This document shows, piece after piece, positions 4,810-40,110 of a stretch of 40,308 nucleotides of DNA. The position numbers and the translations under genes are program-made. Position 1 is the stretch's first letter; each line of letters opens with the position of its first letter. Under the pieces are notes generated by a model. The model had not been told where the DNA came from and searched no databases. It was given only the letters and a program-made list of their open reading frames with translations. The DNA lies in the IMG/VR virus record IMGVR_UViG_3300008116_000707, positions 1 through 40,308 of that record; one strand, given 5' to 3'. Source of the DNA: a virus.

Positions 4810-5920
4810 AGAAAGAATTCAGAAAGAAGCACTAGATGCAGTCTTGTCATCAAGAAGGGCAGGACTGCATGTTAGTATGGGTGTAGGTAAGACTTATATA
4901 GGTCTACAGTACATCAACAAATTTGGTGGTAAGGTATTAGTAGCGGCTCCCAAGCTTACAATCTTTGAGTCGTGGAAGAACGATGCAGCAAAGTTTGGAT
5001 TAGAGTACTTGTTACAAAGTATAACCTTTACAAGTTATATCTCCTTAACAAAACATAATCCAAAAGATTATGACATTGTAATTCTAGACGAAGCACACAA
5101 TACCAAGAGTTCTCACGATGAGTTCTTAGGTAACTTTACAGGAAGAATACTAGGACTTACAGGTACACCTCCAAAGTACACCTATGGAGAGAAAGGACAG
5201 ATGATGGAGCAGTACTATCCCATTAAGTATACTTATGGTGTAGACGAGGCTGTAGGTGAAGAGATTCTAAACGACTATAGAATCTTTGTTCATACATTAC
5301 CTTTAGGTACAGCAAACAACATACAAGTAGGGAAGGGAAATAAAACTTTTCTTACAAGTGAAGCTAAGAACTATAGCTGGTTGCAGAGTCAGATTCAATC
5401 TGCAGTAAGCGACAAGCAAGTGTTTATGAAGCGTATCTTCCTTCTAAATGCCCTTAAACAGTTCAAGACTAAGTTGTTCTTTACCGATTTCATATCTAAA
5501 CGAGTACCTCCCACTGAAAAGTGCTTACTATTTGCCAATACTACAGAACAAGCTGATGCTATCTGTCAGTATTCTCACCACTCCAAGAACTCTAAAACAG
5601 TTAATGAGATTAACCTACAGAAGTTTGCTAGTGGTGAAGTAACTAGATTAAGTGCAGTAGAACAACTCAGTGAGGGTGTTACTGTACCTAATCTAAAACA
5701 CATTGTTATCATGCACTCTTATGGTAACGAGAAGAAAGCTTCCCAGAAAATCGGCCGTGCACTTCGTCTAAACAAAGATGAAGTAGCAGCAGTACATGTA
5801 TTGTGCTTCAAGAACACGGTAGACGAAACCTGGGTAGCAAAATCATTAGAGGACTTTGACATAAGTAAAATAAAATGGATAGATTGGACATTGCAAGGCA
5901 ACCAATTCGTGAAGTTGTAA
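4793..5920 (+). CDS. SF2 DEAH-type helicase
   Basis: A 375-residue superfamily 2 helicase with all main motifs: Walker A MGVGKT (29-34), DEAH (99-102), LTGTPP (122-127), a motif IV-like LLFANTTEQA, motif V EGVTVPNLKHIVI, and motif VI QKIGRALRLN (318-327). It is compact, without large inserts, and resembles phage repair or branch-migration helicases of the UvsW kind. It overlaps the endolysin start on the left and the radical SAM gene by 46 bases on the right, so the three are translationally coupled. A role in recombination-dependent replication or DNA repair is the family-based expectation. Confidence 0.9.
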   Translation: MSQEIRERIQKEALDAVLSSRRAGLHVSMGVGKTYIGLQYINKFGGKVLVAAPKLTIFESWKNDAAKFGLEYLLQSITFTSYISLTKHNPKDYDIVILDEAHNTKSSHDEFLGNFTGRILGLTGTPPKYTYGEKGQMMEQYYPIKYTYGVDEAVGEEILNDYRIFVHTLPLGTANNIQVGKGNKTFLTSEAKNYSWLQSQIQSAVSDKQVFMKRIFLLNALKQFKTKLFFTDFISKRVPPTEKCLLFANTTEQADAICQYSHHSKNSKTVNEINLQKFASGEVTRLSAVEQLSEGVTVPNLKHIVIMHSYGNEKKASQKIGRALRLNKDEVAAVHVLCFKNTVDETWVAKSLEDFDISKIKWIDWTLQGNQFVKL

Positions 5921-6756
5921 GAAAAACATTTGACATACGGCCTAGCGGAAGATCGACTGACTTCATTAGTCCTTCTTTCGGCTATGGCTGTTTGTTCAAC
6001 TGTTCCTACTGCTACATGAAAAGACACCAGCCTGATGGATTAACAGTGGCAACCAATATCAATGATATACTAACAGAGATAAACAACCACTGCACTTTTG
6101 CCGTAGTAGATAAGCCTAACCAAACACATGATGAGTATATAACGTATGACATCTCTTGTAATGAAGATTTTGCGTTACATCTTAGGTATTATCCTTGGCA
6201 GTACATTCTACAGTTCTTCAAAGAACATCCTAAAGCTATGGCTTCATTTGCTACCAAGTATGTAAACAATAAACTACTTGAGTTCAACCCTGAAGGTAAA
6301 GTTAGAGTTAGGTTTTCTTTGATGCCTCAGTACTATGCAGATCTTTTAGAGCCAAATACCAGTCCTATACTTGATCGGATAAAAGCGATAGACCGATTTA
6401 TAGAAGCAGGTTATGACGTTCACATCAACTTTTCTCCAATTATAGTACACGATAGATGGTTAGAACACTACGAGTATCTATTCAAACAAGTAGAAGAGCA
6501 TGTAAAGTACAAAGATTTAGTTAAAGCTGAGGTTATCTTCCTCACACACAATGAGGGTAAACATCAGCACAACCTTATGTATGGAACTAAAGGAGAGTAT
6601 CTCTTGTGGCAACCTGAGATACAAGAAAACAAGATAAGTCAATACGGAGGTAAGAACATTCGTTACCGACACGACTTAAAGGCTAAGTACATCAAACAAT
6701 GGACTGAGTTACACGACCAGTTCATTCCTTGGAACACAATAAGATACATATTCTAA
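5875..6756 (+). CDS. Radical SAM enzyme, spore photoproduct lyase-like
   Basis: A 293-residue protein with the radical SAM cluster motif CxxxCxxC (C39, C43, C46 in GYGCLFNCSYCY). Downstream segments match the spore photoproduct lyase family: RFSLMPQYYADLLEP, DRIKAIDRFIEAGYDVHINFSPI and a WLEHYEYLF segment. SplB repairs the thymine dimer 5-thyminyl-5,6-dihydrothymine using SAM. Whether this phage member repairs lesions or modifies DNA is unknown. The early ATG is needed to include the cluster, so a 46-base overlap with the helicase is real. Coupling to a helicase supports a DNA substrate. Confidence 0.8.
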   Translation: MDRLDIARQPIREVVRKTFDIRPSGRSTDFISPSFGYGCLFNCSYCYMKRHQPDGLTVATNINDILTEINNHCTFAVVDKPNQTHDEYITYDISCNEDFALHLRYYPWQYILQFFKEHPKAMASFATKYVNNKLLEFNPEGKVRVRFSLMPQYYADLLEPNTSPILDRIKAIDRFIEAGYDVHINFSPIIVHDRWLEHYEYLFKQVEEHVKYKDLVKAEVIFLTHNEGKHQHNLMYGTKGEYLLWQPEIQENKISQYGGKNIRYRHDLKAKYIKQWTELHDQFIPWNTIRYIF

Positions 6757-9509: not shown

Positions 9510-10142
9510 TTATAAATATTCAACTGATTAATAATTCCAAAAAATTACACTATCTTTGAAGCATTATGAGATGGACTAAAGATGAAGATCAAATTCTTCA
9601 AGAAAAATTTCAAACTGCTCAAAAAGATGAATTAATGTTGCTTCTACCTAACAGGTCTTGGGATTCTATACTAAATAGAGGAAACCGAACCTTTAAGTTA
9701 AGTAGAAGCAACTTTAAGCATGGTTTTGCTGCTGGAAATACTTTTAGAAAAGATAAAACTCCTTGGAATAAAGGTATTCCTTTTTTTGCATTAAGAGGTG
9801 AAAAAAATCCTAAATACAAAGGATATTCTTATATCACTAAAAGAGGATATCGTTATATTAAAGTTAGTGAAGACACAGATACTTGGACTTCCTACCGACC
9901 TGAACATATTGCTGTCTTAGAGAACTTTTTAGGACGGAAAATAATTAGAACAAAAAATGGTAAAGGAGAAGGTGTACATCACATTGACGGCAATAAATTA
10001 AATAACGAAATCGACAACTTACTTTTGTATTCCAATGAGAAAGAACATAGATTAATCCATAATCAATTAGAAAGTTTAACTTTTAAGTTAGTACAAAAAG
10101 GAATAATAAAATTTGACAAAATAACAAAAAAATATTACTACA
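9510..10142 (+). mobile_element. HNH homing-endonuclease insertion in the 5' end of thyX
   Basis: The segment between the thyX remnant and the intact thyX start holds one free-standing HNH gene. The duplicated first codons of thyX at both ends (9462 and 10143) mark the insertion. The element carries its own TAnnTTTG site at 9551-9558 just upstream of the HNH start. Its sequence is visibly more A+T rich than its neighbours, which fits transfer. Confidence 0.7.
9551..9558 (+). promoter_or_regulatory. Bacteroidota-type promoter -7 site (TATCTTTG)
   Basis: TATCTTTG matches the Bacteroidota primary sigma -7 consensus TAnnTTTG, eight bases before the HNH ATG. I see no good TTG box at the usual distance upstream. 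The site would leave almost no leader. Confidence 0.35.
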
Positions 10143-10153
10143 ATGAAAAATAA
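9566..10153 (+). CDS. HNH homing endonuclease with SANT/Myb-like N-terminus
   Basis: 195 residues. The N-terminus (WTKDEDQILQEKF and SWDSILNRG, 3-40) looks like a Myb/SANT-type helix-turn-helix for target binding. A PWNKGI motif at 66-71 is common in phage HNH proteins. The catalytic region reads GVHHIDGNKLNNEIDNLLL at about 137-154 with HH, the IDGN box and a distal EHRLIH (160-165). It would nick or cut the intron- or element-less thyX allele and spread by repair. The gene overlaps the thyX start by 11 bases. Confidence 0.9.
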   Translation: MRWTKDEDQILQEKFQTAQKDELMLLLPNRSWDSILNRGNRTFKLSRSNFKHGFAAGNTFRKDKTPWNKGIPFFALRGEKNPKYKGYSYITKRGYRYIKVSEDTDTWTSYRPEHIAVLENFLGRKIIRTKNGKGEGVHHIDGNKLNNEIDNLLLYSNEKEHRLIHNQLESLTFKLVQKGIIKFDKITKKYYYNEK

Positions 10154-10760
10154 AGTTGAATTAATAGGTTGGTATGGAGACGATACCACAATCGCTTTAT
10201 CTGCTTGGACATCAACCAGCAGAGAATTAACAGTAGAGAAGAAAGCACGTATACCAGCACTCATTAAGATGTTATGGTCTGAAGGACACGAAACTCCGTT
10301 TGAGAAAGCTAACGTACACTTCTTGGTAACTTGTGATATTGCCTCACACATCCACCTACTTAAGCACCGCATCGCTTCTATTAATGCTGAATCAGCCAGA
10401 TACAAGGAGTTAAAAGAGGACAAGTACTACATGCCAGAAGATTGGCCTGCTGATTGGCTTAAAGAACTAGAAAAGTTTACTGCGGATAGCAACTATCTTT
10501 ATCACGAGTCCCTAGAAGCGTTAACACCTATTCTAGGTCGCAAGAGGGCCAAGGAGAGTGCTAGATTCTTCAAGACTTACAACTCACAGATTACCGCTGA
10601 CGTACAGTTCAACATGCGTTCCTTTGCAAACTTTCTCAAACTTAGAGCCTCAGAGCACGCACAAGTTGAAATACGGGACATTGCATGGGAAATGTTTAGG
10701 TTGGTAGATACAATCGAAGGAGATCCATTCAGACACACTTTGGAGATGATTAAACCTTGA
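10143..10760 (+). CDS. thyX: Flavin-dependent thymidylate synthase ThyX
   Basis: 205 residues. The ThyX signature RHRxxSxNExSxRY appears at 74-87 as KHR, then SINAESARY. The first Arg is Lys and the Glu after Asn is Ala, while H75, R76, S84, R86 and Y87 are kept. EGHETPFEKANVHFLV (47-62) and EVRDIAWEMF-like EIRDIAWEMF near the C-terminus also fit. It makes dTMP from dUMP using methylene-THF, FAD and NADPH. It works with the dCMP deaminase at 29862. An HNH gene overlaps its start and a copy of its first codons lies 680 bases upstream. Confidence 0.93.
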   Translation: MKNKVELIGWYGDDTTIALSAWTSTSRELTVEKKARIPALIKMLWSEGHETPFEKANVHFLVTCDIASHIHLLKHRIASINAESARYKELKEDKYYMPEDWPADWLKELEKFTADSNYLYHESLEALTPILGRKRAKESARFFKTYNSQITADVQFNMRSFANFLKLRASEHAQVEIRDIAWEMFRLVDTIEGDPFRHTLEMIKP

Positions 10761-29861: not shown

Positions 29862-30299
29862 ATGACTCGTCCCTTGCATCATTCGGAGAAAAAACATAAC
29901 CTTTACTTAGATCTAGTGCGTAGAATTGCAGAAGAATCTTATTGTAAGAGACTACAAGTAGGTGCTTTAATTGTTAAGGATGGAAACATAATCTCCTTCG
30001 GTTATAATGGTACTCCTAGTGGTCTTCCTAACGTATGTGAAGAAGGTGATGTGACTTTACCTTATGTGTTGCATGCAGAGTCTAACGCCATTAGTAAGGC
30101 TTGTAAGTCTCCTATCAGTACTGAGGGAGCTACATTGTACATGACGCACTCTTGTTGCACTGAGTGTGCCAAACTGATTGTTCAAAGTGGTATCAAGAAA
30201 GTATACTACATAACTGAATATCGTGATTTAGCAGGCATCAACCTATTGAAAACCTGTGACGTAGAAGTAAGTAAAACAAACAACCTAAAACCAATATGA
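29862..30299 (+). CDS. dCMP/cytidine deaminase family protein
   Basis: 145 residues with the zinc deaminase motifs HAESNAI (H71, E73) and SCCTECAKLI (C99, C102). The N-terminus LYLDLVRRIAEESYCKRLQVGALIVKDG matches the dCMP deaminase group (ComEB-like). It would turn dCMP into dUMP, the substrate of ThyX. Four bases overlap the next gene. Confidence 0.9.
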   Translation: MTRPLHHSEKKHNLYLDLVRRIAEESYCKRLQVGALIVKDGNIISFGYNGTPSGLPNVCEEGDVTLPYVLHAESNAISKACKSPISTEGATLYMTHSCCTECAKLIVQSGIKKVYYITEYRDLAGINLLKTCDVEVSKTNNLKPI

Positions 30300-30577
30300 C
30301 TATTAAACTGAGAGGATCAAGGGTATTGCTTAATTGCCCCCCTCGTAGAGACCTAGGCATTCACTTGAGTGAAGAAGCCCAAAAAGAAGTTCTAATTAAA
30401 GAACTAAATGAAATGACCTCACTTGAGGTATTTGCTATTGGTGATACTGTTAAAGATATAGCAGTAGGAGATAAGGTGTATATCTCACCTAGCACCATTA
30501 TGCATGCAGAACTTATTGACGTAGAAGGCGGTCAGAAGTTTTTAATCCGTGAGATGGATGTTGTATTAATCTGGTAA
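30296..30577 (+). CDS. GroES-like co-chaperonin
   Basis: 93 residues with the GroES fold pattern: an opening KLRGSRVLLNCPPRR, then VFAIGDTVKDIAVGDKVYIS (about 47-66) and a closing GGQKFLIREMDVVLIW. The mobile-loop region (about 18-32) is shorter or divergent (LGIHLSEEAQKEV). It may replace host GroES to fold a phage protein, as T4 gp31 does. No GroEL gene is in view. Confidence 0.75.
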   Translation: MTIKLRGSRVLLNCPPRRDLGIHLSEEAQKEVLIKELNEMTSLEVFAIGDTVKDIAVGDKVYISPSTIMHAELIDVEGGQKFLIREMDVVLIW

Positions 30578-31015: not shown

Positions 31016-31023
31016 TATATTTG
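31016..31023 (+). promoter_or_regulatory. TAnnTTTG promoter site for tail-fibre genes
   Basis: TATATTTG matches the -7 consensus TAnnTTTG, 24 bases before the ATG at 31048 and just after a terminator. It fits a new, presumably later-expressed unit. Confidence 0.45.
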
Positions 31024-31047
31024 TATATTACTATCAGTAGCCATGTC

Positions 31048-33330
31048 ATGTCTAATAATCCTCTGACTCCTCAAGACCTTATAACCTTTACACAAGCATC
31101 TGCTCAACAAGGTTTTTTGTCTCCTCAGTTCCCACCAAAGTATGTGTTTGCCACAGACCCAGTAAACTTTGGTACACCTGCATTCAGATTATTCGATGCG
31201 GCTTTCATCTCTACTGGTATCATCGATCCCAATAGATTAGGAACAGGTGCTACAGGAGCAGGTAATCTTTACTTAGCCGATGACGGAGTGTGGAAACCTG
31301 TTGCAGGAGGAGGTGGAGGTGGTGATATGTATAAGTGTTTTCACCCCGACACAGAGTTATTAACTCTAAACGGCTGGAAAAAAATCACTGACATTTCATT
31401 TGACGATGAAGTAGCAACTCTTAATCAAGAGACAAAAGAGTTAGAATACCAAGTACCTAATCATATTTTTAAATACGAGTATGACGGAGAACTATTAGGA
31501 AGAGAGACTAAACAGTTATCTTATTTGGTTACTCCTAACCATAGGATGTATGTAAGAAAATGGTATGGAGGACAAAGAGGACTAGTTTGGTCTGAAGATT
31601 TTTATTGGGAAAGAGCTGATGAAGTTTCAGAAAAAATAAGGTCATTTCCAATAACAGCAAAATGGAATGGAGTAAAAACAGAAACTAATCCTTTTGGAAT
31701 TGACGATGATTTGTTTTTAGAATTCTTAGGTTGGTTTTTAGCTGAAGGTTGTGTGGTTGGTACTAAAATATACGTAACTCAAACAAAAAGCAAAACTATT
31801 GCTGACTGTACTAAAGTTATGGTTGAGCTAGCAAGAAGTTTAGGAAGAACTTTGGCTCACAACCAGAATGCACATTTTAACTTTAGGCACTCAGAACTAG
31901 CAAAATTTTTAAGTCAGTTTGGCAAACATGCTCACAATAAATTTATTCCATCTTTTGTCAAGAATTTACCTCCAGAAAAGTTAATTTTATTTTATAGTGC
32001 TTACTACAAAGGAGACGGTCATCTAAATAGTAATAATATTACTACTGTATCAAAAAGAATGGCTGATGATTTACAAGAAATAATCTTAAAACTTGGAGGA
32101 TACGCCACAATTACAAAATGCTCTCCTGCAATTACTTCCTACGGTGTTAGAGACTTTTATAGACTAAATTGTAATTTCAATAACTTACAAGGGAGTACTG
32201 CTAAAAAAGACAATTATAAAATTGATTATAAGGGATTTGTACACTGCGTAGAAGTAGATAACGCTACTCTATATACAAGGTTTAATGGAAAGCCTGTATT
32301 CTTAGGAAACTCCACTTACGACACAGACAATAGTGGAATCGTAGACAAGGCAGAGGCTTTAATGACTTTAGGAAGAAACTCTACAGGAGCTACTCTTTAT
32401 AAAGGCACAGTAATCAGAATCCAAGGTTCAACAGGACATCTTCCTAACTTTGTAAAGGCCCAAGGTAACAACGATGCTAACTCTGCACAAACCTTTGGTG
32501 TAGTTGCAACGGACATAAACAACAACTCAGATGGGTATGTTATTGTTCAAGGAACGATTGATACTTTAGATACTCGTTCAGTAGCGACACATCCTTTTAC
32601 AGACGTTACTCTCGTAGACGGAGACATTCTTTACCTTCACCCTACAATTCCTGGATATCTTACGAACGTAAAACCTTCGGCTCCTCAGCACTTAGTTTAC
32701 GTAGGGGTCGTAACTAGAACCTCTCCGACAAACGGAACTATAGTTTATCGTATTCAGAACGGATATGAGTTACACGAACTTCATGATGTAGCTATTGCCT
32801 CAGAAGTCAACAACGACCTTTTGGTTTATGAATCATCTACGGATTTATGGAAGAACAAAACCATATCTACCATCTTTGGAGGTACTCCCTTGGTCTCAGT
32901 TCCTACCCTAGCTCAAGTAACCACAGCAGGGAACACCACCACCAATGCTTTATGGGTAGGTGGAGGACACTACCTTGAAGGAGTTGCTGCAAGCGGAACA
33001 GATGCGTCATTAGTTTTAAGAAGGACAGCCAACAACGGTTGGGTACGTTATGCTCTAGGGGTAGGTGGTCCTGTTTCTTTCGGGGCTCACATGGGTACAG
33101 GAGAGGTTCAAATAATGGCACCCTTTGGAGGATTTTTTCCCACCTTCTATTCAAATGGATCTGAGGCTATGCGTATTCCTACATCAAGAAACGTCCTTAT
33201 AGGCACTACTACCGATGCAGGATATAAGTTAGATGTTAACGGTACTGTAAGAGTAAAAGGTAATATTGATCTTGCCGATCAAATGGATCGTTATATTTAC
33301 GGCTTTGGCGGTAGTTATATTAAAATTTAA
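31048..33330 (+). CDS. Tail fibre protein, 5' part, with intein; frame-broken at 33327
   Basis: 760 residues from ATG 31048 (a TTG at 31021 would add nine). The N-terminus MSNNPLTPQDLITFTQ and GTGATGAGNLYLADDG are typical of Bacteroidota phage fibre proteins. The protein is interrupted by a 325-residue intein (C97 to N421). After the intein the fibre continues (STYDTDNSGIVDKAEAL) through a beta-rich shaft to an IGTTTDAGYKLDVNGT module near the end. The frame stops at 33328-33330, but the same protein clearly continues in another frame from about 33324. It recognises or reaches the host surface. Confidence 0.85.
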   Translation: MSNNPLTPQDLITFTQASAQQGFLSPQFPPKYVFATDPVNFGTPAFRLFDAAFISTGIIDPNRLGTGATGAGNLYLADDGVWKPVAGGGGGGDMYKCFHPDTELLTLNGWKKITDISFDDEVATLNQETKELEYQVPNHIFKYEYDGELLGRETKQLSYLVTPNHRMYVRKWYGGQRGLVWSEDFYWERADEVSEKIRSFPITAKWNGVKTETNPFGIDDDLFLEFLGWFLAEGCVVGTKIYVTQTKSKTIADCTKVMVELARSLGRTLAHNQNAHFNFRHSELAKFLSQFGKHAHNKFIPSFVKNLPPEKLILFYSAYYKGDGHLNSNNITTVSKRMADDLQEIILKLGGYATITKCSPAITSYGVRDFYRLNCNFNNLQGSTAKKDNYKIDYKGFVHCVEVDNATLYTRFNGKPVFLGNSTYDTDNSGIVDKAEALMTLGRNSTGATLYKGTVIRIQGSTGHLPNFVKAQGNNDANSAQTFGVVATDINNNSDGYVIVQGTIDTLDTRSVATHPFTDVTLVDGDILYLHPTIPGYLTNVKPSAPQHLVYVGVVTRTSPTNGTIVYRIQNGYELHELHDVAIASEVNNDLLVYESSTDLWKNKTISTIFGGTPLVSVPTLAQVTTAGNTTTNALWVGGGHYLEGVAASGTDASLVLRRTANNGWVRYALGVGGPVSFGAHMGTGEVQIMAPFGGFFPTFYSNGSEAMRIPTSRNVLIGTTTDAGYKLDVNGTVRVKGNIDLADQMDRYIYGFGGSYIKI
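31336..32310 (+). mobile_element. Intein with LAGLIDADG homing endonuclease
   Basis: 325 residues from Cys1 (TGT 31336) to the terminal Asn (AAC 32310), followed by Ser of the C-extein. Block A: CFHPDTELLTLNGWKKITD. Block B: YLVTPNHRMYV with the TxxH. The endonuclease has two LAGLIDADG-type helices, FLGWFLAEG and LFYSAYYKGDG. Block F: HCVEVDNATLYTRFNGKP ends FLGN, with Gly in place of the usual penultimate His. It splices the two fibre parts together and can home into intein-free alleles. A block-F Gly is also seen in some phage inteins. Confidence 0.93.
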
Positions 33331-35925
33331 GTACTACAGGTTCTTTTTCTATGAACGGTAACTTAAATATAGGTAATGGAAATTTTTTAGCAGCCGATCC
33401 GTCAAATTATAATAGAATCTACCCTTACAATGGCGCTAATGCAAATATGCGATTTGTATTGGGTCACCCAACAGCAGGTGATTTCGATTGGGAATATCCA
33501 ATTAACACAGTATTGGTTAGACTAAAAAGAAATGGTAATTTCTTAATAGGAACTACTACCGATTCAGGATATAAGTTAGATGTTAATGGGACAATACGTT
33601 CTTCTAGTGTAATATCTGGACTACAACTAACAAACACAAACTCTAATCCTGTAATTGGGTCTGATGGATCAAACATTGCGTTAGGGGTAAACTTTGCTTC
33701 TAGGATAGTTATGGCTGGTACCAATATTGACTTTATTGCAAATTCGGTAACCGTAGCAAGATTTGCTAGTTCTAATGGTGGAGTATACATTGGTGGAGCA
33801 GTAGTACCAACAGCAAAACTACAAGTAGCAGGTTCAATCACTGCGGCCTCAGCACTTGCACAAGGAGTATACTTCAACAACACTTTAGTAGCAGCAGCAA
33901 ACAATGACGTATTAGTAGGACTAGACATCAATCCTACCTTTACTAATGGTGCGTTTACGGGGGTTACGAATGTTGCTTTAAGGACTCAGACAGGAAATGT
34001 ATTACTAGCCACAACTAGTGGTAACGTAGGTATAGGTACTACTTCTCCACAACACAAACTTGATATTACCGTAGATAACGTACAAGGATTACGTGTTCAA
34101 TCAAATAACTCTGGTTTTTTAGAGGTTGGTAGATCATTTGGAAGTAAATGGAGATGGACAAATGATTATACAGCAGCTAATATACTAGAATTACTAGTAA
34201 ATAATTTAGTCGGAGGTAATCCGAATCAAAACGTACTTACTGTCTTTGGTTCTACTAAAAATATTAGTATAGGTACAACCACAGACGCAGGATACAAACT
34301 AGATGTAAATGGTACAGCAAGAATACAAGGCAATACTAATATAACTGGGTTTTTATCTGCCACAAGTTATTTAGAATGTAGAAATCAATTTCTTTTACGT
34401 AATGGTTTAGGTGGAGGACATACAAGTTTTAATATAGATGCTACGAATTTATATCTTGTAAACTCTACAAGTATTAATTTTCAAATAGGATACTCTGGTA
34501 ACTATTCATTTATTTTAAACAATGCTGATAGAACAATTGGTATGGCTGATAATGGTGCAACTGCTATAACAAATGCAAGTTCAGTATTAACTTTAACCTC
34601 CACTACTAAAGGCTTCTTACAACCAAGGATGACCAATGCTCAAGCAGTAGCAATTGCTACGCCTGCAACTGGTCTTCAAGCATACGACACCACAAACAAT
34701 AAAAACTTACTCTACAACGGAACTGCTTGGCAGAACATAGCAACTGAAAGTTGGGTCTCAGCACAAGGGTATGCAGTAGGTACTCCAACTTTAGATCAAG
34801 TTGTTACTGCAGGAAATAGTGTTGCAAATAATGGAATAACAATTACTAAAGCATCTGGAGCAACCTTGACTCTTAATCCTGGGAACTCAGATAATGCTAT
34901 TGTAATTAACAATAATGGATTTATAAAATTCACATCTAGTAGTGATTCTTTTATTAGAGGTAGCTCGTCAACATTTGTTGTTTTAGATGCTGGCTATGTA
35001 TCAAAGGTTCAATTTCACTGGGGGGGAAGTGCTTCATGGATAAACACAGGAGGTAACTTACTCATAGGAACAACCACAGATGCTGGGTATAAGTTGGATG
35101 TGAATGGTACGGCTAGAATACAAACAAACCTAAATGTAGGAGATACAGCATTTACGGCAACAACTCCAAATTATATTTCTTTAGGTGGAACATATGCAAA
35201 TAGCGGATATGGAGCTAAATTAAAACTTTTAGATTCTGGGTCAACGCAATGGGGACTTGGTATTTCTACTGCTGGAATAAATTATTATGGATCTTTTCAT
35301 AATTTTTTTGCAGGAACAACAACAGCGGCAATAGTAATATCTCCAAGTGCAGATACGGCATCAACATCTCCTGCCTATATTTCAATAGGACAAAGTTATA
35401 GTAGTGTTGCTGGGGCGAATCCAAAGTTAAGATTATTTGGAACAACATACGGACTAGGAGTTTCCGCTGGTCAAGTAGATTATATTGCTCCAAGTCATGT
35501 TTTTTATGCAAACGGAACAGAGGCAATGAGAATTACCTCGGCTGGATATATAGGTATAGGCACTACAACCCCAACAGAGCTACTCCACATAGTCAACAAC
35601 ACCACTGGGAATAAGTTTGCAAGGATCAGTGCTGGCGGAAGTAATGCAAGTGCTGCGTGGGTTGCACAGAATGACCAAGTAGATAACATTGTATACCGTG
35701 TGTTTGGTTCTGGAGTAAGTGGTACACAGATGGGTGTAAACTTAGCTAGAAGTGCTTCATTGATTGCCAACCTAGATGGTAGTGGTAAATTCTTAATTGG
35801 TACATACTCTAACACAGATGTAGTATTTGGAGCTGGAGACCAAGAAAGAATGAGACTTATAAACAATACAGGTAACTTCTTAATAGGTACTACTGTAGAT
35901 GTTGGAACTAAACTAAACGTAAGTG
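33199..35925 (+). repeat. Repeated fibre module DNA (IGTTTDAGYKLDVNGT)
   Basis: Nearly identical DNA encoding the module occurs at about 33199, 33547, 34269 and 35066, with more degraded copies near 34031, 35555 and 35882. Each marks the junction between shaft domains. Such repeats allow recombination between copies or with other phages, so the number of shaft units may vary between relatives. Confidence 0.75.
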
Positions 35926-36056
35926 GTGATATCAACGCAATGGGCTACCGAATAAACAACGTTATAGGTTACACAGGTATCCTAAATATTCCTGGAAATC
36001 CTCCTGGAATGCAAAACGTTGACATACAAGGTGGAATTATCGTAAATATTTTCTAA
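33351..36056 (+). CDS. Tail fibre protein, 3' part
   Basis: 901 residues from ATG 33351; the frame is open from 33324 and preceded by LSTTGSFS, which continues the upstream fibre text. It contains at least four IGTTTDxGYKLDVNGT modules or relatives, and many shaft segments rich in Asn, Thr, Gly and Ser, as in trimeric beta-helical fibres. The C-terminus (GYRINNVIGYTGILN and IPGNPPGMQN) lacks an obvious S74 chaperone domain. It probably reaches the host receptor. It may be made as one protein with the upstream part if the frame break is an artefact. Confidence 0.85.
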   Translation: MNGNLNIGNGNFLAADPSNYNRIYPYNGANANMRFVLGHPTAGDFDWEYPINTVLVRLKRNGNFLIGTTTDSGYKLDVNGTIRSSSVISGLQLTNTNSNPVIGSDGSNIALGVNFASRIVMAGTNIDFIANSVTVARFASSNGGVYIGGAVVPTAKLQVAGSITAASALAQGVYFNNTLVAAANNDVLVGLDINPTFTNGAFTGVTNVALRTQTGNVLLATTSGNVGIGTTSPQHKLDITVDNVQGLRVQSNNSGFLEVGRSFGSKWRWTNDYTAANILELLVNNLVGGNPNQNVLTVFGSTKNISIGTTTDAGYKLDVNGTARIQGNTNITGFLSATSYLECRNQFLLRNGLGGGHTSFNIDATNLYLVNSTSINFQIGYSGNYSFILNNADRTIGMADNGATAITNASSVLTLTSTTKGFLQPRMTNAQAVAIATPATGLQAYDTTNNKNLLYNGTAWQNIATESWVSAQGYAVGTPTLDQVVTAGNSVANNGITITKASGATLTLNPGNSDNAIVINNNGFIKFTSSSDSFIRGSSSTFVVLDAGYVSKVQFHWGGSASWINTGGNLLIGTTTDAGYKLDVNGTARIQTNLNVGDTAFTATTPNYISLGGTYANSGYGAKLKLLDSGSTQWGLGISTAGINYYGSFHNFFAGTTTAAIVISPSADTASTSPAYISIGQSYSSVAGANPKLRLFGTTYGLGVSAGQVDYIAPSHVFYANGTEAMRITSAGYIGIGTTTPTELLHIVNNTTGNKFARISAGGSNASAAWVAQNDQVDNIVYRVFGSGVSGTQMGVNLARSASLIANLDGSGKFLIGTYSNTDVVFGAGDQERMRLINNTGNFLIGTTVDVGTKLNVSGDINAMGYRINNVIGYTGILNIPGNPPGMQNVDIQGGIIVNIF

Positions 36057-38110: not shown

Positions 38111-38482
38111 TTATAGATTTACTATAGAAGGATTACCAAGTGTTGTTTGCATACCATCTTCAAAAATAATGTACCAAAAGTTACTTAAAGAGTTTAACCG
38201 AGTCTTAGAAAACTCAATTGCAATTTCTTGTAGTGCTTCTTGGCCTGAATGTTCTGTAGCATACTGATAACCCCATACTTTACCGTAAGGCAAAATAGGA
38301 TAAGCAAGATTAAATACAGTTTGTAATTGTACTATCCAAGCCTGCTCATCTGTTGTTTGGTATAGTTCAGGTTGACCGCTTGTCATTTGCTGTTCTGGAT
38401 CAATATAACCATAATTAAAAATACTCGTATCAGTATAAGTGATAAAGTATGTTCTCTGTGTTGGAAATTTTATCTCGCTCAT
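38111..38482 (-). CDS. Hypothetical virion-associated protein
   Basis: 123 residues, aromatic and Thr-rich, with RTYFITYTDTSIFNYGYIDP and WIVQLQTVFNLAYPIL. It overlaps the adhesin stop by one base (ATGA type). It is probably a small structural or adhesin-related protein, given its place between adhesin and lysis genes. Confidence 0.5.
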   Translation of the reverse strand: MSEIKFPTQRTYFITYTDTSIFNYGYIDPEQQMTSGQPELYQTTDEQAWIVQLQTVFNLAYPILPYGKVWGYQYATEHSGQEALQEIAIEFSKTRLNSLSNFWYIIFEDGMQTTLGNPSIVNL

Positions 38483-40110
38483 TATATACCTCCGTCTACT
38501 ATTGTCCAGTTATTTGGTGCAAAATCTAAAATATTTTTACCTGCTTGAGCCTCTGCAGTGTACTTAATAGTTCCAAAACTAATACTCAAGTTAGGTTGTA
38601 CAGATCTTGAACTCCATCCATTGTAAATGGCATTAAGATTGGCTGCGGAATAGTTGGCTGCTGATTTGCCGTCCATGAAACTTGAAAAGTTAGTTACATT
38701 TGATACATTCCAATTTCCAATAGCTTGATTAAAAGTTGTATTAAACCTAAACATTAATGACATATTTGTTACCGCACTTGTATTCCAATTTCCTATTGGC
38801 TGATTAAATGTGCTATCTCCAAACATACCAGCCATACTTACCGTACCCGTGTTTTTAATTGTCCAGTTGTTAATATCCGAGGAACCTCCATTGTTAAATG
38901 AATAATTCGCTCCAAACATATTTGTGAAACTTGTTACGTTTGACACGTTCCATGCCCCAATGTTTTGATTAAAATTGGATGTGGAAAACATATTATTCAT
39001 GTCAGTTACCGCACTTGTATTCCATGAGCCAATTGGTTGGTTGAATGCACTATTTAATGAAAACATGCTTGACATATTCGTGACTGCACTTGTGTTCCAA
39101 CTTGAAATGTTTTGATTGAATGAAGAACTCCTAAACATACTACCCATACTTACCGCACTTGCCGTTCTAATTGTCCAATTATTTATATCTGCTGAGCCTC
39201 CATTATTAAATGCGGTTGCCCCATTAAACATAGATGAAAAATTGGTAACATTAGACACGTTCCATGCTCCAATATTTTGATTAAATGAAGACGCATTTTG
39301 AAACATTTCTCCCATATTAGTAACTGCACCCGTATTCCAAGAACCAATATCTTGATTGAAAAAATAGTTGCCAAAAAACATCCTATTCATAGTTGTTACG
39401 TTTCCTACATTCCAATTGCTAATGTCTCTATTAAAACTATTTTCGTGAAACATATTGTTCATAGTAGTAACTGCACTCGTATTCCAATTATCAATTGGTT
39501 GATTAAATGGGCATTGTCTAAACATTTGAGACATTGAAACCGACCCCGTTGTTCTGATAGTCCAATTATTTATATCCGCAGAATTTCCATTGTTAAATCC
39601 GCTTATATAAAACATTTCATGAAAATTAAGAACATTTGATACGTTCCAAGAGCCGATTGCCGAATTAAAGTTGTTACAACTTCTAAAATAAGTAGCCAAA
39701 CTTGTAGTTGTAATAGTAGGAGCATCTGTTGCACTTGCGGTTAAATTTGTACAACCCGCAAATCCCGCATCAACACTAATATTTAAACTACCCCAATTGA
39801 TAATATCAAGTATTTTTAATCTATCTCCTCCATTATTAAACTGCCATCCTAAAATAGAACCCGTAACACTTATAGTGTAAGTACCTACACTTGCATAAGT
39901 GTGAATGGCTAACGTATGATTTGCAATTGTTTCTACAGTTCCGTCCCCCCAATCTACTCGCATATTTAATCCTGTAGAAGTAGTAAGGGGCATTCTAAAC
40001 TGCGTACTTGTACTACTACCTGCTGAGGTATTGTTCGTATTTACTGTAAATCTAAAAGGAAGTTGATTTACTATACCACCTCCTACTACCCCTATACCAA
40101 TCCCAATCAT
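38482..40110 (-). CDS. BspA/DUF285-repeat adhesin with PKD-like domain
   Basis: 542 residues. A PKD-like domain lies near the N-terminus (RVDWGDGTVETIANHT and YASVGTYTISVTG). From about residue 150 the protein consists of about thirteen repeats of the type SWNTSAVTNMSSMF, NWNVSNVTNFSS or NWTIRTTGSVSMSQMF, the pattern of DUF285 (PF03382) of BspA-like surface proteins. No signal peptide is present, as expected for a virion protein. It could be a receptor-binding or decoy protein. It starts inside the stop of the following (upstream) gene. Confidence 0.8.
   Translation of the reverse strand: MIGIGIGVVGGGIVNQLPFRFTVNTNNTSAGSSTSTQFRMPLTTSTGLNMRVDWGDGTVETIANHTLAIHTYASVGTYTISVTGSILGWQFNNGGDRLKILDIINWGSLNISVDAGFAGCTNLTASATDAPTITTTSLATYFRSCNNFNSAIGSWNVSNVLNFHEMFYISGFNNGNSADINNWTIRTTGSVSMSQMFRQCPFNQPIDNWNTSAVTTMNNMFHENSFNRDISNWNVGNVTTMNRMFFGNYFFNQDIGSWNTGAVTNMGEMFQNASSFNQNIGAWNVSNVTNFSSMFNGATAFNNGGSADINNWTIRTASAVSMGSMFRSSSFNQNISSWNTSAVTNMSSMFSLNSAFNQPIGSWNTSAVTDMNNMFSTSNFNQNIGAWNVSNVTSFTNMFGANYSFNNGGSSDINNWTIKNTGTVSMAGMFGDSTFNQPIGNWNTSAVTNMSLMFRFNTTFNQAIGNWNVSNVTNFSSFMDGKSAANYSAANLNAIYNGWSSRSVQPNLSISFGTIKYTAEAQAGKNILDFAPNNWTIVDGGI

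Follow-up and report, generated by a model that had tools for sequence, protein, structure and literature searches.

Results

An in-frame insert in a fibre-like gene

The window (the whole stretch of viral DNA that was analysed, 40,308 nucleotides of IMG/VR record IMGVR_UViG_3300008116_000707) contains an open reading frame at 31021-33330, with a likely start at the ATG at 31048, that holds an insert of 325 codons. The insert spans 31336-32310, from TGT (Cys1) to AAC (Asn325), keeps the frame and is free of stops. It is preceded by ...GGGGGGDMYK, ends in Gly324-Asn325 and is followed by Ser+1, the first residue of STYDTD...; an earlier note on this DNA had given exactly these coordinates and residues, with DMYK before, STYDTD after and Gly ahead of the terminal Asn. 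In outline, the insert reads CFHPDTELLTLNGWKK...LVTPNHRM...FLGWFLAEG...YYKGDGH...VHCVEVDNATLYTRFNGKPVFLGN, between GGGGGGDMYK and STYDTDNSGIVDKAE. Its features are listed below, all on the plus strand; the names of splicing blocks A, B, F and G are those that we take to apply to these segments, and conservation refers to ten aligned intein copies, a sample gathered partly through the shared peptide MADDLQEI and hence not neutral.

31048-31335, plus strand: N-extein, N-terminal region of the fibre-like protein, ending in GGGGGGDMYK; ATG at 31048, frame open from the TTG at 31021; homologous to the empty fibres L022, L024, L026 and L027
31336-32310, plus strand: putative intein, 325 residues, Cys1 to Asn325; based on family matches, alignment, predicted fold and alleles, L022 among them, from which it is cleanly missing
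31336-31383, plus strand: splicing block A, CFHPDTELLTLNGWKK, with Cys1 as nucleophile; Cys1 invariant in 10/10 aligned copies
31516-31563, plus strand: splicing block B, LSYLVTPNHRMYVRKW, with TxxH (T66, H69); T66 and H69 (T66-P-N-H69) invariant in 10/10
31666-32145, plus strand: LAGLIDADG homing-endonuclease domain, about residues 111-270 of the intein; from LAGLIDADG_3 and structure matches, with approximate limits set by eye
31714-31755, plus strand: first LAGLIDADG motif, FLEFLGWFLAEGCV, with acidic E137; Glu in 9/10, Asp in L012
31981-32025, plus strand: second LAGLIDADG motif, LILFYSAYYKGDGHL, with acidic D227; invariant in 10/10
32227-32283, plus strand: splicing block F, YKGFVHCVEVDNATLYTRF, with Cys304; invariant in 10/10
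32284-32310, plus strand: splicing block G, NGKPVFLGN, with Gly324 and the terminal Asn325; from the alignment of ten copies
32311-32313, plus strand: +1 codon TCC (Ser), predicted C-extein nucleophile; GCC (Ala) in L022, the empty allele closest at the junction
32311-33330, plus strand: C-extein, STYDTDNSGIVDKAE motif (DxDxxGxVD) followed by the fibre domain; homologous to phage fibre, with the frame ending at 33330 in this contig

The DxDxxGxVD motif presumably resembles a calcium-binding loop.

Several other genes of the window can be described. An HNH_3 endonuclease frame at 9566-10153 (PF13392, E 3.1e-7) adjoins and overlaps a ThyX-like gene at 10143-10760 (PF02511). A spore photoproduct lyase-like protein, possibly a DNA repair gene product, is encoded at 5875-6756 (PF20903, E 4.1e-27). 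The product of 30296-30577 looks by eye like a GroES-type co-chaperonin and has no Pfam match at 0.001. On the minus strand, 38482-40110 encodes a 542-residue protein with DUF285 repeats (PF03382, E 6.3e-93) and a PKD domain, the repeats being surface-protein-like.

Splicing residues, endonuclease motifs and predicted fold

The reading of the insert as a LAGLIDADG intein, already made in the earlier note, is borne out by its splicing residues, by two acidic LAGLIDADG motifs, by the LAGLIDADG_3 match, by the predicted fold and by exact empty sites in relatives. LAGLIDADG_3 (PF14528, Pfam) matches intein residues 217-275 with an E-value of 1.5e-8. The NCBIfam model intein_Nterm (TIGR01445) scores 25.2 bits on the insert alone, against a cut-off of 24.5, and 23.2 bits, under the cut-off, on the whole precursor. 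A match to the insert was also obtained with PHROG 85, a family that bears the label thymidylate synthase (E 2.3e-11). Intein_splicing (PF14890, Pfam) found no match within the window, and the match of Hint_2 (Pfam) to the insert lies under its cut-off.

An AlphaFold model of the intein built from the ten aligned copies (mean pLDDT 88.1, pTM 0.88) aligns with the intein homing endonuclease 2cw7 at Z 27.0 over 296 residues (3.8 A), spanning residues 1-325, with 7qsu at Z 26.8 over 304 residues (3.8 A) and with 7qst at Z 24.6. The intein-endonucleases in question (TliVMA, PhoVMA and PI-PkoII; 7qsu, 7qst, 2cw7) thus match the predicted fold over its whole length at Z 24.6-27.0, but they have archaeal ATPase and polymerase hosts and share 18-21% identity with the fibre intein. 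Smaller Hint proteins (mini-inteins, BIL and hedgehog domains) match at Z 14.5-20.3 over 122-144 aligned residues, and the endonuclease part of the model also matches PI-SceI, I-DmoI and the TliVMA intein. By this comparison of the model with the PDB, the insert is predicted to adopt a Hint fold. Together with the matches listed above, the fold places the insert well outside chance resemblance.

Class 3 inteins carry a Trp in block B, a Cys in block F and a Thr in block G (WCT) and do not need a Cys1 nucleophile. The insert has Cys304, but the residue two beyond the block B His is Met71 and the one preceding the penultimate position is Leu323; both Cys1 and Ser+1 are present, so that class 3 was rejected. 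The insert is very probably a class 1 intein with a nested and apparently intact LAGLIDADG homing endonuclease, able to home; splicing and cleavage are what we infer from these features.

The penultimate residue is Gly324 and not the usual, non-obligatory His. The earlier note had singled out this Gly, which is indeed there but is no oddity: among the ten copies, gathered as described above, nine have Gly and one (L010) has His, and a phage RDF intein with Gly splices, and does so faster than its own His variant (PMC5050341).

The host protein is fibre-like

The joined flanks of L002, an occupied relative used in place of the window's own sequence, retrieved 17 phage records by tblastn, several of them annotated as tail fibre. 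This L002-based query is 47% identical to the tail fiber protein of Pseudomonas phage Rollin over query residues 110-261, and identity to the Rollin tail fibre and to an unannotated region of phage zth2-2 is 47-48%. The next frame of the window, at 33351-36056, matches the PHROG tail fiber families 9942 (E 6.7e-6) and 18345 (E 0.002). No match to a Pfam tail family was obtained for either part. The fold predicted for the empty fibre L022 (300 residues, 7 rows) had a pLDDT of 38 and was left out of all readings. The suggestion of a fibre gene as host is in this way substantiated by the L002-based matches and by the downstream frame, and the assignment of the host protein as fibre-like is well based at the level of homology.

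Contig L001 and the window share 6613 identical bases that end at 32948, and in L001 the intein-bearing frame is open for 1709 codons, stop to stop. The window frame stops at 33330 and a new one starts at 33351 in another frame, whereas L001 keeps the single 1709-codon frame. The two sequences differ between 32949 and about 33313, near IGTTTDxGYKLDVNGT repeats, which could reflect either fibre variation by repeat recombination or misassembly.

Occupied and empty alleles of the site

A pattern search for occupied sites, which covered viral contigs (IMG/VR), found an intein at the same site in five contigs besides the window: L001 and L005, which equal the window, L002 and L003, which are alike, and L004. 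Asn325 and Ser+1 are present in the window and in all five. The intein copies of these contigs are free of internal stops, and a search of each whole contig, which may be a fragment, found one copy apiece.

Looking in the fibre genes of relatives for the uninterrupted site, as the earlier note had proposed, was productive. A search with the joined fibre returned 44 loci, five of which were the occupied contigs again; direct pattern searches gave seven contigs with Ser or Thr at +1 and eight with Ala. After duplicates were merged (compared over ±40 bases), 35 distinct empty sites were retained, of which 19 carry Ser at +1, 14 carry Ala and 2 carry Thr. They include an exact empty allele, L022, which agrees with the window at 88/90 bases before the site and differs downstream first at +1 (G for T) and next at +39. 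The insert is thus no normal domain of this fibre, since homologous fibres are empty at the same place. The intein was also absent from the intein-less contigs of L022, L024 and L026, each searched whole and each possibly a fragment.

Single-base differences between occupied and closely matching empty splice junctions

From 78 bases before the site to 38 after it, the sole difference between the window and L022 lies at +1, where the empty allele has GCC (Ala) and the occupied one TCC (Ser). Between L002 and the empty L026, only three bases differ from 30 before the site to 53 after it: L002 has T instead of C at -4, G instead of A at -1 and T instead of G at +1. Compared with L033 or L027, L004 shows the same three changes, with others in the run of glycine codons and a small number further downstream. 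All occupied sites therefore read TATAAG, the intein, then T, while the remaining bases of the +1 codon match the Ala-type empties of each lineage.

Within the closest fibre architecture, which was delimited after the data were seen, all eight distinct empty sites have Ala at +1. The C-extein nucleophile has to be C, S or T (PMC2814812), so Ala is unfit for ordinary splicing, and a short co-converted tract is the simplest account of the junction. Counted as Ser in occupied against Ala in empty alleles (3 vs 8), the difference has a nominal Fisher p of 0.006, or 1/45 if L002 and L004 represent one event. Ser is the +1 residue in two more distinct empty sites, L034 (with its copies) and L037, in which the LGTG N-terminus is combined with an additional linker and DMSK. 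A test of independent pairs, Ser against intein, had three pairs (median p 0.5) and was without power. The sequence GATATGTATAAG also occurs in 3/35 empties, and the match of the flanks is on that account suggestive at most.

From these comparisons, we consider it rather probable that Ser+1 was brought in together with the intein by co-conversion. The competing explanation retains the same intein but lets Ser+1 arise without co-conversion, either through mutation and selection or through entry into Ser-type fibres followed by fibre recombination. A change from GCN to TCN takes one base, and selection alone would leave the same trace; Ser is moreover frequent at +1 among the empties (19/35), and the closest row to the window C-extein is a Ser-type empty, L023 (AGC at +1), with 95% identity over 636 bases vs 87% for L022. 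At the junction, and only there, the window is closer to L022 than to L023. Against this explanation stand the eight Ala sites of the same architecture and the agreement of the +1 codon, at its third base, and of the sequence that follows with the Ala empties of each lineage. L002 and L004 furthermore share silent changes, to TAT and AAG, relative to the empties nearest to them, and protein-level selection gives no explanation for these. An origin of Ser+1 without co-conversion is to us a somewhat doubtful proposition, though one of real weight.

Probable movement of the intein between fibre lineages

The inteins of L002 and L004 differ at 1/975 bases, whereas the identity of their flanks is 80-87% within 30-60 bases and 94% over 300 bases downstream. 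Between the window and L002, intein identity is 92.4%, against 57% (ungapped) over the 300 bases downstream; in a gapped alignment, most 75-base blocks of this downstream region are 31-69% identical. Identity rises sharply at the intein borders, and the window and the five occupied contigs fall into three fibre lineages. A C-extein tree (190 residues, 24 rows) requires the intein state to change three times, each change being imposed by starred branches; a single clade of intein-bearing fibres is rejected (AU p 1.2e-98). These changes could be gains, or one gain with losses; near-identical inteins amid diverged flanks point to gains by transfer. The L002/L004 comparison indicates a recent transfer, and the two may represent one homing event. 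The guess in the earlier note that the intein could spread between phages gains support here, as flanks are far more diverged than the intein across the three lineages.

Between the window and L004, dN is 0.019 and dS 0.36 for the whole intein, and 0.037 and 0.38 for the endonuclease part; the first 100 intein residues show no amino-acid change. Low dN relative to dS in both domains and the retained acidic residues of both LAGLIDADG motifs imply that the endonuclease has been kept.

The insertion point is a conserved motif

The insertion point lies at the junction of a glycine run and a DMYK|xTYD-DxDxxGxVDxAE stretch. The motif DMYK|(S/A)TYD is common to many fibres and is also found in otherwise unrelated-looking proteins (L016, L017, L019 and L020, the last with four copies). 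In a conservation profile of 22 sequences, the site ranks 4/228, a rank biased by the fact that loci had been gathered with a GGGGGDM pattern; the DxDxxGxVDxAE tail of the motif lay outside the search patterns for empty sites and is therefore a fairer sign of conservation. Inteins favour conserved sites (PMC2814812), and the fibre intein, placed in a conserved fibre motif, follows this preference. Of the earlier description of the insertion as unusual, the choice of gene stands, whereas the choice of site is not unusual, since the motif is conserved.

In L056-L059, the LGTG fibre N-terminus is present and the DM(Y/L)K motif is missing. Related stretches, GDM(Y/L)K-(S/A)(T/V)YD-xxNxGxVDxAE, are repeated within one protein in L020/L063 (frame 158-2980), and also in L064 (frame around 5001-5575). 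This unannotated modular phage motif constitutes a large pool of potential homing sites.

Discussion

The features of the insert suggest the following course of events. The fibre precursor would be translated whole, intein included. Cys1 would start an N-S acyl shift, Ser+1 would attack and Asn325 would cyclise, rejoining the fibre at ...DMYK-STYD... and giving the ligated peptide DMYKSTYDTDNSGIVDK. When two phages meet in one cell, the endonuclease could cleave, at the conserved DMYK|xTYD, fibre genes that lack the intein; repair on the occupied gene as template would then copy the intein with a very short flank, from about -4 to +1. With the co-copied T, the +1 codon would change from Ala to the Ser required for splicing.

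The intein might instead act as a regulator that times fibre maturation during infection, beyond being a selfish element. It has been proposed that the penultimate residue tunes splicing in phage inteins (PMC5050341). We nevertheless consider such a role very unlikely here: among the loci compared, relatives of this fibre without the intein outnumber those with it, the endonuclease is under purifying selection as in a homing element, and the present data hold no sign of conditional splicing. Cleavage of the fibre without splicing by a bacterial intein-like (BIL) or other Hint domain, with regulated release of the N-terminus, is exceedingly improbable: the penultimate His is indeed missing and the fold matches include BIL and hedgehog domains, but the insert has a nested LAGLIDADG domain with both acidic residues, a terminal Asn and Ser+1, it is exactly absent from homologues at a conserved site, where BIL domains do not prefer to sit, being found at non-conserved sites of hypervariable proteins (PMC2814812), and a phage intein with a penultimate Gly does splice (PMC5050341). 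The nested endonuclease, the conserved site and the exact empty alleles led us to reject a BIL or hedgehog-type domain as such.

BIL domains are not known to contain a homing endonuclease. The class 1 intein that we favour has several known counterparts. The mycobacteriophage RDF (metallophosphoesterase) intein of Bethlehem shares with it Cys1, the penultimate Gly, the terminal Asn, a nested endonuclease and a conserved motif next to it (PMC5050341). Mycobacteriophage inteins sit mostly in packaging and nucleic-acid enzymes; the hosts named in PMC5050341 are terminase, portal, RDF, and nucleotide and DNA enzymes, whereas here the host is a fibre, and the word "tail" does not occur in its main text (0 occurrences). 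Portal inteins (L007-L009) and terminase-like ones (L010-L014) from IMG/VR have the same architecture, with 25-34% identity in the best segment and the block F Cys in common, but differ from the fibre intein in host protein and insertion site; the portal label was tested on L007 alone, and the terminase-like label of L010-L014 is a reading of sequence. The MADDLQEI stretch that these relatives share served as one of the search patterns and therefore does not count as separate evidence of relatedness. The same architecture, at 24-27% identity but with other hosts and sites, recurs in inteins of mycobacteriophage genes labelled nucleotidyltransferase and DNA methylase. Among isolated phages, the annotated host genes of intein relatives include nucleotidyltransferase, DNA methylase, terminase and portal genes. 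Tail fibre is not among the annotated names of the 60 records listed out of 274, several of which are unannotated or hypothetical.

A related intein (33%) at 4874-5848 of L006 lies in a very large protein whose N-extein matches an endolysin PHROG (4.9e-25). This protein is possibly another virion-type host for this intein group.

The closest parallel to the junction comes from the haloarchaeal MCM-d intein, which like the fibre intein has Ser+1 whenever the site is occupied, while most empty sites carry a residue (Pro) that blocks splicing; an intein next to Pro is not viable, and co-conversion was inferred by the authors (PMC10643990). That case concerns an archaeal replication helicase and a change from Pro to Ser, whereas here a phage fibre changes from Ala to Ser and the tract can be followed at the level of single bases.

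In the available text of a survey of cryoconite phages, no intein hit is recorded among 36 tail fibre/collar variable islands, though an intein is reported for a minor head protein (PMC7468147). An unexplained insertion of 145-146 residues, a suspected intron, is described in tmpF, a tail gene of staphylococcal phage (PMC5526547). In the literature consulted we found no description of a tail-fibre intein, which is not proof of its absence in print. As judged from sequence, the fibre intein is a class 1 LAGLIDADG intein of known type; its allele type is new and its host gene unusual.

Our comparisons suggest that the intein moved between related viruses, carrying with it the one base change needed for its own excision. 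A more tentative extension, quite possible though somewhat less likely than not, is that the fibre intein is a self-sufficient cassette, each homing event carrying about 4 bases before and 1 after and so rewriting an Ala site into a Ser site, and that its cleavage of fibre genes in co-infecting phages also drives the swapping of fibre segments and, through it, of host range. The locus offers natural, matched occupied and empty alleles, down to one splice-junction base, in which phage homing and co-conversion could be measured. A rapidly exchanged gene such as that of a fibre can host an intein if the target is a conserved motif. If the cassette reading is true, the intein could colonise receptor-binding genes whose own +1 residue would make insertion lethal.
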